Shown here: piece after piece, positions 2,984 through 17,010 of the stretch
How the letters are laid out: each line of letters begins with the position of its first letter
Position numbering within the stretch: position 1 is the stretch's first letter
Assembly: GCA_002841295.1 (NCBI GenBank)
Contig: PHEU01000001.1
Span: 62,001-126,000 of the forward strand
DNA: 64,000 nucleotides
Reading direction: 5' to 3'
Source: Actinobacteria bacterium HGW-Actinobacteria-6
GTDB lineage: Bacteria; Actinomycetota; Coriobacteriia; Anaerosomatales; Anaerosomataceae
The notes under the pieces: model-generated
What the model was told of the DNA's origin: nothing
Database searches by the model: none
The model's input: the letters and a program-made list of their open reading frames with translations, nothing else
Made by a program: the position numbers and the translations under genes

Positions 2984-3012
2984 TTGACACCGAACGTGTG
3001 TTCGTATACGTT
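2984..3012 (+). promoter_or_regulatory. recA promoter with LexA (SOS) box in the spacer
   Basis: A -35 hexamer TTGACA lies at 2984-2989 and a -10-like TACGTT at 3007-3012, 17 bp apart. The palindrome CGAACGTGTGTTCG (2991-3004) fills the spacer and matches the Gram-positive/actinobacterial LexA operator GAAC-N4-GTTC exactly. Bound LexA would cover the promoter. The gene starts about 50 nt downstream. Confidence 0.88.
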
Positions 3013-4117: not shown

Positions 4118-4771
4118 ATGACCGGCATCGTTACAAAGGTCACTACGGTTCGAGTCGGCTGTAGACCCAGAGTCATCGAGATTAACGAACAGCCGTGGCG
4201 TACCACGTCTGCAGCCACGATTCGCTTGTCTGGTTTACGCGAAGGCGACATCGTCGATCTTGACGCGCTGACCCTCCGAATCGATGAGGCTGAGCAGCAG
4301 GCTCTCCGTGAACGTGGTCTTGCCCTGCTGGGCTATCGAGAGAGAAGTGTCTCAGAGTTGCGCTCCAAGCTTCTCGAAGATGGCTACCCGGACGCGTCAG
4401 TGCATACGCTTGTTGCTGCACTTGAGCGCTCAGGGCTGGTGAATGACGAACGCTTCGCTGAATCACTCGTGCGTTCTGCGGCCGGGGGCAAGTCCCACGG
4501 CCGCAGGCGCGCAGCGATGGATCTCGCGACGCGAGGAGTTGCTGACGACATTGCACATGCAGCGCTCGACGAGTACATGCCAGCGGACAACGAGCCCGCA
4601 CGAGCGCGACAGGCTGCACGCAAGCTTTCGCGACCAAATGAGCGCGTCGATCGCCTTGCCACGCGCTTGGTGCGCAAGGGGTTCTCACCTTCAGTCTCCT
4701 ACTCGGCTGCCCGAGAAGTACTGTCCGAAGCCGACACGCGCGATTCAATCCACGACCTCTCGGACCTCTGA
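4118..4771 (+). CDS. recX: Regulatory protein RecX
   Basis: A 217-residue RecX-family protein. RecX binds RecA filaments and restrains strand exchange and ATPase activity. The core carries the tandem three-helix repeats, including ALLGYRERSVSEL, the LVNDERFAESLV segment and the GFSPSVSYSAAREVL segment. The first ~60 residues are a less conserved extension. It sits 15 nt behind recA and probably shares the SOS-controlled promoter. Confidence 0.9.
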   Translation: MTGIVTKVTTVRVGCRPRVIEINEQPWRTTSAATIRLSGLREGDIVDLDALTLRIDEAEQQALRERGLALLGYRERSVSELRSKLLEDGYPDASVHTLVAALERSGLVNDERFAESLVRSAAGGKSHGRRRAAMDLATRGVADDIAHAALDEYMPADNEPARARQAARKLSRPNERVDRLATRLVRKGFSPSVSYSAAREVLSEADTRDSIHDLSDL

Positions 4772-4819: not shown

Positions 4820-4849
4820 TTGACGCGAACCTCCGTTCGCAGCTACGAT
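4820..4849 (+). promoter_or_regulatory. Second LexA-box promoter, downstream of recX, with no protein gene directly behind it
   Basis: TTGACG (4820-4825), an 18-bp spacer and TACGAT (4844-4849) form a housekeeping-type promoter. The spacer begins with the palindrome CGAACCTCCGTTCG (4826-4839), a perfect GAAC-N4-GTTC LexA box. The geometry copies the recA promoter, where the box starts 1 nt after the -35. Predicted transcription starts near 4857, about 290 nt before RNase Y. Confidence 0.75.
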
Positions 4850-5148
4850 ATGCGCGGCAAATGTGATTGAGACGACCGTCGGTCTCCCGACTGTCGATAT
4901 GTGTGAAGTATCCGGATGGTTGCGGCTCGTTCCCGCAGGGCGCACGCCCTGCTAGTAGTGTATACAACGCGCTATCCGTATCTCGCGCTTGTTCTATCGC
5001 AGTTGCCGGGCGCCGTGTCGTCCGGCTTGACGTAGCACTCACCAGGGATTCTTCGTCCCGCGTGCACAAGACGGAATGCGGCCCGACGCAAGTGATCGGG
5101 TGGCTGGCGCCCCTCTGACAGTGTGTGTTCACGACTCAGGAGGGGACT
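4850..5148 (+). other. About 300 nt without a convincing gene: possible SOS-induced RNA or long rny leader
   Basis: I find no open frame here with a ribosome site. The only short frames are a 6-codon one at 4850 and an 18-codon one at 4899, both without a Shine-Dalgarno. Two hairpins are visible: 4873-4896 (ten positions, one mismatch, TCTC loop) and 4935-4952 (seven perfect G+C-rich pairs, GCAC loop). The second could end a short transcript or the recA-recX mRNA, although no T-run follows it. Function unknown. Confidence 0.4.
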
Positions 5149-6681
5149 ATGGAATACGTTCTTTACATCACCGCCTCTCTCGTTATCGGCGCTCTCATCG
5201 GGTATGCGATTCACCGCTTTGTGGTTTCTGACAAGATCAACCGTTCACGCGAGTCTGCTGAACGGATGCTTGCGGATGCCGCGAAACAAGCCGAAACGAC
5301 AAAGAAGGAACTACTGCTTGAAGCAAGAGACGAGATCTTCCAGCTGAAGGCTACTGCGGAAGACGAGGCCAAGGAGCGCCGCAAGGACCTTAGTGCGCTC
5401 GAGAATCGCCTCATGCAGCGGGAAGAATCAATCGAGCGCCGCGCTGAGTCCCAGGACAAGCGGGAGCATCAACTTTCAAGCCAGGCCGGGCAGATCCAAA
5501 AACTGGAGAAGGAGCTTGAGACCTCGATCGCTGAGGAGAAGCGTCGGCTTGAAGTGCTCGCTGGAATGAGCAACGAACAGGCGCGAGAAGTACTCCTCGA
5601 CCGCGTTAGGGATGACACCACGCACGACGCGGCAATCATCATTCGTGAAACGGAAGCCCGCGCGCGCGAGGAAGCCGACCGCAAGGCTCGCAACATTGTC
5701 GGCATCGCCATTCAGCGCGTCGCCGCCGATCACACAGCCGAGTCAACGGTATCCGTCGTTCACATCCCGAGCGACGACCTCAAGGGACGCATCATCGGCC
5801 GAGAAGGTCGCAACATCCGTGCCTTCGAACAGCTGACCGGGATCAACCTCATCATCGATGACACGCCAGAAGCCGTCATCTTGTCGAGCTTCGACCCGGT
5901 TCGTCGCGAGATCGGTCGTATCACCCTCGAGACGCTCATTGCCGACGGTCGCATTCACCCCGCTCGTATCGAAGAGATGTTCAACAAGGCTACGACCTTG
6001 GTTGAAGAGCAGGTTCGCGAGGCTGGCGAGGCTGCAGCCTTCGAAATGGGCATTCCGAACCTTCACGCTGACATCATTCGTACGCTCGGCCGCCTGCGCT
6101 TCCGCACCTCTTACGGCCAGAACGTCTTGAAGCACTCCCTCGAAGTTGCTCACCTTGCCGGCGTCATGGCTGCCGAACTTGATGTGGATATCAAGCTCGC
6201 GAAGCGCGCAGGCTTGCTGCATGACCTTGGAAAGGCCATCGACCACGAAATCGAAGGCCCGCACGCAGTCATTGGCGCCGACCTCGCGCGCCGACTGGGC
6301 GAGCCCAAGGAGATTCTCCACTGCATCGAGGCACACCACGGCGACATCGAGGCCACAACGGTCGAAGCGGTGCTCGTCCAGGCCGCAGACGCCATTTCGG
6401 CATCGCGTCCCGGCGCACGTCGTGAGACGCTTGAGAGCTACATCAAGCGCCTTGAGAAGCTTGAGGCGCTTGCGGAGTCACACAAGGGCGTCGAGAAGAC
6501 CTACGCTATGCAGGCAGGCCGCGAGATCCGCGTTATGGTCAAGCCGGAAGAGATTTCCGATGCCGAGTCGACCATTCTGGCGAGAGACATCGCGAAGCAG
6601 ATCGAAGAGGAACTGCAGTACCCCGGCCAGATCAAGGTCATGGTCATCCGGGAGAGCAGAGCAATCGAGTTCGCTAAATAG
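5149..6681 (+). CDS. rny: Ribonuclease Y
   Basis: A 510-residue membrane-anchored endoribonuclease that starts decay of many mRNAs. The N-terminus has one transmembrane helix (about residues 2-22), then a long charged coiled coil to about 190. A KH domain carries GRIIGREGRNIRAFE, and an HD domain carries the metal-binding HDLGK motif and flanking histidines. The ATG at 5149 is chosen over an upstream GTG at 5125 because AGGAGGGG sits directly before it and the transmembrane helix then begins at once. A LexA-box promoter lies about 300 nt upstream. Confidence 0.96.
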   Translation: MEYVLYITASLVIGALIGYAIHRFVVSDKINRSRESAERMLADAAKQAETTKKELLLEARDEIFQLKATAEDEAKERRKDLSALENRLMQREESIERRAESQDKREHQLSSQAGQIQKLEKELETSIAEEKRRLEVLAGMSNEQAREVLLDRVRDDTTHDAAIIIRETEARAREEADRKARNIVGIAIQRVAADHTAESTVSVVHIPSDDLKGRIIGREGRNIRAFEQLTGINLIIDDTPEAVILSSFDPVRREIGRITLETLIADGRIHPARIEEMFNKATTLVEEQVREAGEAAAFEMGIPNLHADIIRTLGRLRFRTSYGQNVLKHSLEVAHLAGVMAAELDVDIKLAKRAGLLHDLGKAIDHEIEGPHAVIGADLARRLGEPKEILHCIEAHHGDIEATTVEAVLVQAADAISASRPGARRETLESYIKRLEKLEALAESHKGVEKTYAMQAGREIRVMVKPEEISDAESTILARDIAKQIEEELQYPGQIKVMVIRESRAIEFAK

Positions 6682-6714: not shown

Positions 6715-7800
6715 ATGTCCGATAATGCCGATCGGCTCATAGATTTCGTCTCTTCTGTCTCCGGTGATGAGTTTCTCAAAGTCGAGGAGAACCTGGGTGA
6801 CGGGTTCGTCCGCCTCAAAATATCCGAGGCGGAGAGACGGCAAGCCAAACACGACGTCCGCTCCTTCGAGGACATCGTCGTAGAGCTGCTCCGCAACTCG
6901 CGTGACGCTCACGCTCAACGTATCTTCGTCGCAACCACTCGCGAAGGAGACGTTCGTACACTGACCATCATCGACGATGGTATTGGTGTTCCCACCCAGC
7001 TGCATGAGACCATCTTCGAGCCTCGAGTAACGAGCAAGCTTGAGACAATGGTCATGGATCGCTGGGGAGTGCACGGACGAGGCATGGCGCTGTATTCTGT
7101 CCGTTCCAATGTCTCATCGGTCAAGGTTGCCTGTTCGGACCTTCATCGAGGGATGGCGCTGCAGGTAGTCGCCGATGTTGCGAACTCGCTTCCCGAACGC
7201 GCTGACCAGTCAACGTGGCCGGCCGTTGAGCGCGACCCCGAAGATGGCCGTCTCAAAGTCGCTCGCGGACCGCACAACATCGTTCGCAGGATCATCGAGT
7301 TCGCGTGCGAGCACCCAGAAATCGACCTATTCTATGGGTCGCCAACAGAGATTCTTGCCACCCTCCACTGGACCGCCAGAGAGTTTCTCGACACCTCTGA
7401 TCTCATGTTCTGTGAGGATCGCTCCCGGATGCTGGTCTGGCACCGTCCCGCGCTCGGCGCAGATGCAGCTGAACTTGTCGAGATCGCTGCCGAGCTCGGA
7501 CTGTCGATTTCGGAGCGGACTGCTCACCGCGTGATGGCCGCAGAACTCGCGCCGCTTGACCCCGTCATTGCGCAGGCTGTCGTCGAAGACGAACCTGCAG
7601 GGCCCACAGCGCCAGACATATACCGGGACAGACGCTCTTTGCGTATCGACCACGCAGATCTTGATTCGTTCCGTAGGGAGCTAGAGAAGGCATTTGATGT
7701 GATCTCGGAGCGCTACTACCTGAGCCTCAAAGGCGAGCCCAAAGTCACTGTGGGCTCAAATGAGATTAGAGTTCGCTTCTCTGTGGAGAAAGAGGACTAG
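6715..7800 (+). CDS. Stand-alone GHKL-type ATPase of unknown function
   Basis: A 361-residue protein with a GHKL (Hsp90/MutL/histidine-kinase) ATP-binding fold in its first ~170 residues. The N-box glutamate and asparagine are E57 and N61 (VVELLRNSRDAHA). They are followed by a G1-box-like DDGIGVP and a G2-type HGRGMAL. There is no histidine-phosphorylation domain, no membrane segment and no MutL or gyrase transducer that I recognise. Residues ~170-361 match nothing I know. It starts 33 nt after rny and is followed by spoVS. An RNA- or protein-remodelling ATPase is possible, but this is a guess from position only. Confidence 0.8.
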   Translation: MSDNADRLIDFVSSVSGDEFLKVEENLGDGFVRLKISEAERRQAKHDVRSFEDIVVELLRNSRDAHAQRIFVATTREGDVRTLTIIDDGIGVPTQLHETIFEPRVTSKLETMVMDRWGVHGRGMALYSVRSNVSSVKVACSDLHRGMALQVVADVANSLPERADQSTWPAVERDPEDGRLKVARGPHNIVRRIIEFACEHPEIDLFYGSPTEILATLHWTAREFLDTSDLMFCEDRSRMLVWHRPALGADAAELVEIAAELGLSISERTAHRVMAAELAPLDPVIAQAVVEDEPAGPTAPDIYRDRRSLRIDHADLDSFRRELEKAFDVISERYYLSLKGEPKVTVGSNEIRVRFSVEKED

Positions 7801-7844: not shown

Positions 7845-7935
7845 TGAGAGCAGTCTTTTCTGAGCATCGGGCGCAGCAAACACCACACCAGTGATCCAGC
7901 ATTCGTCGAAGCATCGCAGTAGCCAGGAGGCACCA

Positions 7936-8211
7936 GTGGAAGTCTTGAAGGTCTCGAGCAAGTCCAGCCCAAATTCGGTGGCAGGTGCTGTGGCTGGCGT
8001 CATTCGCGAGGACGGCGTAGTCGAGATTCAGACTGTCGGTGCCGGAGCGCTCAATCAGGCCATCAAAGCCATAGCAATCGCCCGTGGATTCGTGGCACCA
8101 ACCGGTGTCGACCTCGTATGCAGCCCGGCGTTCGCCGATATCGAAATCAACGGCGAAGAGCGCACCGCAATTCGGCTCCTCGTTGAGCCGCGACCAATGC
8201 ACCACTCCTGA
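7936..8211 (+). CDS. spoVS: SpoVS-family Alba-like protein
   Basis: A 91-residue protein of the SpoVS family, starting VEVLKVSSKSSPNSVAG with the INGEERTAI segment near the C-terminus. SpoVS proteins have an Alba-like fold and are thought to bind nucleic acid. In Bacillus the gene affects sporulation, but the family is also found in lineages that do not sporulate. The GTG at 7936 is chosen for the AGGAGG 5 nt upstream and the conserved N-terminus. It is placed between the GHKL ATPase and a PHP phosphoesterase, in a neighbourhood of RNA enzymes. Confidence 0.9.
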   Translation: MEVLKVSSKSSPNSVAGAVAGVIREDGVVEIQTVGAGALNQAIKAIAIARGFVAPTGVDLVCSPAFADIEINGEERTAIRLLVEPRPMHHS

Positions 8212-16249: not shown

Positions 16250-16876
16250 CTAGAGCCTTCGGAAGAGCGCGACAACCTTGCCGAGGATAGTAACATCGCG
16301 GGAGTAGATCGGCTCCATCGATGAGTTCTCAGGCTGGAGACGAATTCGGTCAGCCTCCCTGAAGTAGCGCTTCACGGTTGCCTCCTCATCGATCATCGCT
16401 ACGACGACCTCGCCATTGACTGCGGTCGGCTGCTGGCGGACAACAACGAAGTCACCATCGAGGATACCCGCCTCGATCATGCTTTCGCCCTTCACCCGTA
16501 AGATGAACGTCGACTCGGCTCCGCCGATCTCAGCGGGAAGCGAAACGGTTCCTTCGATGTTCTCGGCGGCAAGAATCGGCGCACCGGCCGCAACCGAGCC
16601 GAGAAGCGGAACTGCCTGGACCTTCGCGTAGTCGACTCCACGGTCCGTGTCGCGATAGTCGAGTACCTCAAGCGCGCGAGGCTTACTCGGATCGCGCCTC
16701 AAGAAGCCCTTTGCTTCTAGTGCAGACAGATGAGAGTGAACCGTAGAAGACGACGAGAGACCGATCGCCTCACCGATCTCGCGAACGGAGGGGGGATAGC
16801 CGCAGCGGTGTACCTCCGCGCGGATGAAATCGAGTATCTGCCGCTGACGCTTTGTGAGCTCGGAGCGGTATTCCAT
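16250..16876 (-). CDS. lexA: SOS repressor LexA
   Basis: A 208-residue LexA. The N-terminal winged helix-turn-helix (~1-70) contains [15 protein letters not shown], and the C-terminal S24 peptidase fold follows. The self-cleavage bond is A97-G98, and the catalytic dyad is S132 (GESMIEAG) and K169 (ATVKRY). The ATG at 16876 is preceded by GGGGGA; a longer frame upstream would cross the operators and is rejected. LexA cleavage on RecA filaments induces the SOS genes, and matching boxes lie at 2991, 4826, 16969 and 16997. It is divergent from the LysM-protein gene. Confidence 0.96.
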
Positions 16877-16960
16877 CAAGTCCCCCTGACCGATAACGCA
16901 TTGACTCAGCCAGTGTACGACGTCCTCGCTGATGGCGCAAACATGCGTTCGCTTTTTGTG

Positions 16961-17010
16961 TTGCATAACGAACACGTGTTCGTATATAGTGGGTACAGAA
17001 CATATGTTCG
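16961..17010 (+). promoter_or_regulatory. Divergent lexA / YneA-like control region with two LexA boxes
   Basis: Box 1 is CGAACACGTGTTCG at 16969-16982, a fully symmetric LexA operator. Box 2 is AGAACATATGTTCG at 16997-17010. A rightward promoter is formed by TTGCAT (16961-16966) and TATATA (16983-16988), 16 bp apart, with box 1 filling the spacer exactly. The TATATA is self-complementary, so it could also serve leftward transcription of lexA. This arrangement would give lexA autoregulation together with control of the divergent gene. Confidence 0.88.

Follow-up and report, generated by a model that had tools for sequence, protein, structure and literature searches.

A conserved structured RNA upstream of rny in an order of Coriobacteriia, with a lineage-specific LexA-type site in its promoter

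Where bacteria possess RNase Y, this enzyme initiates most of their mRNA decay; to our knowledge the setting of its level is known in detail only in Bacillus subtilis. The stretch of 64,000 nt analysed here (the window), from an uncultured member of the class Coriobacteriia, contains the genes pgsA-cinA-thpR-recA-recX-[leader]-rny in that order, and the interval between recX and rny carries a promoter whose spacer holds a LexA-type palindrome. What is this interval for? The initial annotation proposed either an SOS-induced small RNA or transcription of rny partly under LexA. We consider it fairly probable that positions 4820-5148 comprise the rny promoter and 5' leader, the leader being a conserved folded cis-regulatory RNA, common to many gut and environmental bacteria and most likely a transcription attenuator. 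The LexA site is a recent, lineage-specific extra found in a few species, and the leader is the larger finding.

A promoter and a structured RNA linked to rny

The features of the locus used below are the following.

2984-3012, + strand: reference promoter of recA, LexA box at 2991-3004
4118-4771, + strand: recX, upstream neighbour of the leader
4820-4849, + strand: rny leader promoter, TTGACG-N18-TACGAT (sequence inspection and promoter scan; kept throughout the order)
4826-4839, no strand: LexA-type palindrome CGAACCTCCGTTCG in the rny promoter spacer (lineage-specific; atypical centre)
4854-5026, + strand: core of the structured leader RNA (models R1 and R2, 132.3 and 128.8 bits; covariation)
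5149-6681, + strand: rny (RNase Y), predicted target of the leader (TIGR03319 equivalog, 731.6 bits)

The rny promoter consists of a -35 element TTGACG (4820-4825), an 18-nt spacer (4826-4843) and a -10 element TACGAT (4844-4849), with the transcript start probably at about 4855-4857. It is present in 52 of 58 upstream regions of the order, and the spacer is 18 nt long in 48 of these 52. The terminator scan found no terminator-like site between the end of recX (4771) and the leader, so that read-through from recA-recX into the leader is possible. The coding sequence of rny begins with ATG at 5149, preceded by the Shine-Dalgarno (SD) sequence AGGAGGGG at 5138-5145. As initially annotated, there is no protein gene between promoter and rny: comparison with the leaders of relatives gave no conserved ORF in 4857-5148, since the indels among those leaders are not multiples of three. 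A leader peptide was likewise rejected; an ATG-TGA at 4861-4866 is not kept outside the order, and a conserved ORF is absent.

Downstream of rny, a MutL-like GHKL ATPase (6715-7800) occupies the place of ymdB, followed by a protein (7891-8211) that has no NCBIfam match and that we take to be SpoVS; this order presumably recalls recA-rny-ymdB-spoVS of B. subtilis.

Model R1, built from 22 sequences, located the leader 5' of rny in numerous families within the order. Model R2 was then searched against 298 genomes of the class (E<=0.01) and found it in 58 genomes of the order, plus three more with filters off. That leaves eight in-order genomes. Four were excluded because a contig ends there or rny was not matched; the other four (G032, G045 and G058 of family f7, and G051) lack a recognisable copy by R2 even with filters off. 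Of the 65 testable genomes, 61 thus carry the promoter and an RNA of ~170 nt 5' of rny, on the same strand and in one copy each; a second match in G011 is very weak. In every placeable case rny lies downstream on the same strand, and eight cases were verified separately by tblastn. Elsewhere in the class and phylum, R2 had no match that convinced us. A weak match of 44 nt in a genome of another class (G335) covers the hairpin only and was rejected as a leader.

The linkage extends to loci with other upstream neighbours. In G008 the leader is still 5' of rny without recA-recX upstream (the MAG contig is short here, and misassembly is possible), and in a Coriobacteriales MAG (L136) it is kept 5' of rny with a divergent ruvCAB upstream. 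The latter locus has a LexA box, GAACAATTGTTC (L136:3033-3044), between rny and the divergent ruvC-ruvA-ruvB. We assigned it to ruvCAB, which is probably under SOS control there, and rejected it as a LexA site of rny.

Two hairpins had been noted between promoter and rny. Structured RNA is indeed present, and this count understated it: the leader region is a single folded domain with at least four helices.

4856-4867, + strand: P1 5' strand, GGCAA-A-TGTGAT (covariation)
4873-4896, + strand: P2 hairpin (covarying pairs; individual folds)
4901-4904, + strand: P3 5' strand, partner 4985-4988 (4/4 pairs changed on both sides)
4935-4952, + strand: P4 apical hairpin, GCAGGGC/GCCCTGC (alignments and folds)
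4996-5007, + strand: P1 3' strand, ATCGCA-G-TTGCC (covariation)
5005-5026, + strand: T hairpin, GCCGGGCG-CCGTGT-CGTCCGGC (98.5% of cells paired, 43 sequences)

Covariation was evaluated on 41 model-aligned sequences, with slid partners and 500 shuffles as controls. Paired cells amount to 94.2% (22-48% with slid partners); 12 pairs are changed on both sides against 6.9 in shuffles, and 76 cells against 22.4, with none of the 500 shuffles reaching the real values. P1, P2 and P3 all covary, and the arm of P4 varies among relatives as GCAGGGC, CCACCCC, CCGCCC, etc. No Rfam 15 model matches the leader at its gathering score (best chance match, snoZ206, E 4.6). 6S RNA (RF00013), which is similar to the leader in size and closed rod-like shape, was rejected: its model has no match at the leader, and the canonical 6S is encoded at another site of the same genome (G000:C38:15136-15305). 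We found no report of a Coriobacteriia rny leader in the open-licence literature. The element is an unlisted structured RNA family, a leader RNA of a known kind, plus a lineage-specific LexA site.

Related leaders occur at 19 Coriobacteriales/Eggerthellales loci. Most of these show TTGACG-N17-TACCAT, AGGCATTTTGATC, and further on GATCAnnATGCC overlapping GCCGGAT..ATCCGGC, followed by runs like TTTTTTGTTG; the tails have 5.5 T in 8 nt (2.4 expected), and the distance from terminator to rny is 60-140 nt in most of the loci. These MAG leaders end in a clear intrinsic terminator with a long U tract, even where recA-recX is missing. Cultured gut Slackia species also have a related-looking leader, GCCAGGTGTTTATGCCCGGC then TTTTTTTATTT, with a U7 terminator. 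Model R3, built solely from the 19 loci, has among its best matches the leaders of G049, G040 and G031 from the order itself, at the R2 positions, which makes homology of the two sets very likely. P1 gave no informative covariation in 18 Coriobacteriales sequences; this set alone is uninformative because its P1 is too conserved. In other Coriobacteriia lines (L131, L133, L126, L132) the rny leaders also look structured but are of another kind (e.g., with CACGGAG...CTCCGT) and lack a clear terminator.

The LexA-type palindrome in the rny promoter

The first alternative to a leader with a function of its own is that the element exists for the SOS response, as an SOS-induced small RNA or as SOS control of RNase Y. 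The case begins with the palindrome itself. All ten half-site bases of CGAACCTCCGTTCG fit CGAAC-N4-GTTCG (the Streptomyces venezuelae LexA consensus is tCGAAC-N4-GNNCGa; PMC9380542), and the site overlaps the promoter. These perfect half-sites within the TTGACG-N18-TACGAT spacer, first noted by inspection, were confirmed from the sequence, as was the similar layout of the recA promoter 1.8 kb upstream, with TTGACA at 2984-2989 and the box CGAACGTGTGTTCG at 2991-3004. Perfect half-sites inside the spacer are thus common to the rny promoter and the SOS promoter of recA in the same genome.

The genome also has a functional-looking SOS regulon. There are 10 CGAAC-N4-GTTCG sites in 2.35 Mb, against ~2.7 expected from a composition estimate, and five of them fit an SOS regulon or the rny promoter (recA, lexA, uvrA, a PcrA/UvrD-type helicase gene and the rny promoter). 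The other five comprise three inside ORFs and two just 5' of a peptidoglycan hydrolase-like gene and of an unnamed gene. The lexA gene (16253-16975, - strand; TIGR00498, 242 bits) is preceded by a promoter that contains two LexA boxes, CGAACACGTGTTCG and GAACATATGTTCG, and a LysM-like protein is encoded divergently. The box in front of the peptidoglycan hydrolase-like gene, CGAACATAGGTTCG (L171:1501-1514; G000:C33:26333), lies 63 nt upstream of it, and this gene is a possible SOS-linked cell-wall gene.

Among the 52 homologous rny promoters, perfect half-sites occur in three: this species (G000) and two species of genus g7 (G010 and G018). The box of the latter two sits two bases nearer the -35 element than that of G000, so the gains were probably independent. 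In 20000 shuffled sets of the 52 spacers, 0.0009 perfect boxes were expected by chance per set, and two or more were seen in none. Comparison of G010 with G018 shows identical half-sites in spacers that otherwise differ, also at the centre of the box, which suggests selection on the half-sites.

Against an SOS purpose, the four other species of the window genus have the same promoter without a LexA box, as does nearly all of the order, whereas the recA box is kept in every genome of the order with the region available. Throughout the order, promoter and RNA persist where the box is missing, and an SOS-specific small RNA is not supported; the RNA is tied to rny and looks like a cis leader built as an attenuator, not like a separate small RNA. 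In the search of relatives proposed with the annotation, the hairpins and the leader are kept, and the box is absent at rny and retained at recA, an outcome that the annotation had named as refuting its proposal. The centre of the box is a further objection. Position 6 is R and position 9 is Y in each of the order's 50 recA boxes; the centre here, CTCC, has C at position 6 and is unlike all of them, so that LexA binding may be weak. The box scores 12.1 bits, compared with at least 18.8 for the recA boxes and 12.7 for two boxes inside coding sequence. Its score is that of a random centre, 59% of which reach it.

An SOS purpose for the element is therefore a real possibility that we place somewhat below even. 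A narrower claim, LexA control of the rny promoter in this species, is plausible from sequence and might hold, if not quite probably. Such control seems plausible only for this species and genus g7. We found no description of LexA control of rny in the open-licence literature. If true, repeated gain of a LexA site at one promoter would tie DNA damage to mRNA turnover.

As a separate observation, seven genomes (G030, G035, G042, G044, G052, G053 and G056) have a non-LexA motif of about CTTTNCGCTGSTNGGRCG between the -35 and -10 elements of their rny promoters; it is common to several other families and may be the binding site of another regulator.

P1 and the T hairpin as a possible switch

The reading of the element as an rny leader with attenuator anatomy comes from the 3' end of the folded domain. 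The first three bases of the T hairpin, GCC, are also part of the P1 3' strand, and P1 and T are therefore mutually exclusive. Ensemble folding gave a mean probability of 0.48 for the base of P1 and 0.45 for the base of T, near-exclusive in most sequences. Across the order, the 10 nt after T contain 4.4 T where 2.0 would be expected, and T occupies the first three of these positions at 72, 67 and 63%. The tail of the window genus is weak and T-poor (TTGACGTAGC directly 3' of the hairpin in this species) and the terminator scan raised no flag there; the T hairpin here may instead pause RNA polymerase, use Rho or act via the SD.

Built on the computed features, i.e., the conserved promoter, the structured RNA, its linkage to rny, the exclusive P1/T pairing and the terminators of related leaders, the mechanism we propose is as follows. 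RNA polymerase would start near 4856 at the conserved promoter, and the first ~150 nt would fold into a domain closed by P1. With P1 closed, T would lose three basal pairs beside its U-rich tail and transcription would run on into rny; with P1 open, the full T hairpin would form and transcription would stop or pause. The likely input is the state of RNase Y or RNA decay, in a negative feedback as for B. subtilis rny and Escherichia coli rne. In this species and genus g7, the promoter, having gained the LexA half-site palindrome, may in addition be under partial repression that DNA damage lifts. The model predicts attenuation in this species and the direction of its switch, as well as autoregulation and LexA binding. 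The switch anatomy visible in this conserved leader makes the control of RNase Y level testable.

Could the RNA instead act in trans, as a free-standing small RNA of ~170 nt with its own promoter and terminator that merely adjoins rny? Its 5' and 3' ends pair in P1, a terminator-like hairpin follows, and its size and closed shape are like those of known small RNAs; however, rny is always adjacent and in the same direction even with different upstream neighbours, and in some genomes the gap between hairpin and rny is only ~60 nt with no obvious second promoter. We regard a trans-acting RNA as unlikely.

Translational control, in which a hairpin hides the rny SD, has the following candidate.

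5110-5145, + strand: candidate SD-sequestering hairpin, CCCCTC (5110-5115)/GAGGGG (5140-5145), seen in the genus

The two arms of this helix of the window genus vary together in G008 and G014, a point in favour of SD hiding, but the linker is not conserved in the order and SD-overlapping helices average 6.8 bp against 5.9 bp in shuffles. The enrichment being too small, SD sequestering was rejected as the main control, and we think it improbable. A metabolite-binding riboswitch, with a P1-P2-P3 junction aptamer and the terminator as expression platform, has the junction architecture and P1/terminator overlap typical of many riboswitches and is very unlikely, given that conservation lies mostly in P1 and T rather than in the junction loops, that no Rfam class matches and that the element precedes only one gene, rny.

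An attenuator remains our preferred reading. Its helix-centred conservation would suit sensing by a protein or by a change of conformation better than sensing of a small ligand, and RNase Y is attractive as the sensor because that of B. subtilis lowers its own mRNA through the leader and early ORF (PMC10303841). By this analogy the leader is possibly autoregulatory. The widest form of the proposal is tentative and perhaps doubtful as a whole: an RNA switch family through much of the class Coriobacteriia would set RNase Y output by attenuation, possibly sensing RNase Y itself, with LexA added independently in two lineages so that damage would raise RNase Y.

Comparison with known systems

Compared with the SOS promoter of recA, the rny promoter differs in the atypical CTCC centre of its box and in that the box is not kept alongside the gene. 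A close parallel in gene and layout is B. subtilis rny, which has its own sigma-A promoter and a 164-nt 5' leader sensitive to RNase Y level (PMC10303841), i.e., a long leader and own promoter 5' of rny as found here. Control there is by cleavage in ORF and UTR, and neither a conserved P1/terminator switch nor a LexA site is described (PMC10303841). The E. coli rne 5' UTR is also the structured leader of a major decay endonuclease and senses its own enzyme, although RNA and enzyme are unrelated to those studied here; it works by stem-loop binding that speeds mRNA cleavage rather than by attenuation (cited in PMC10303841). In anatomy, the rny leader resembles riboswitches and protein-controlled attenuators. 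It differs from these in having no Rfam match and shares with them a closing helix and a terminator that have bases in common and are mutually exclusive.
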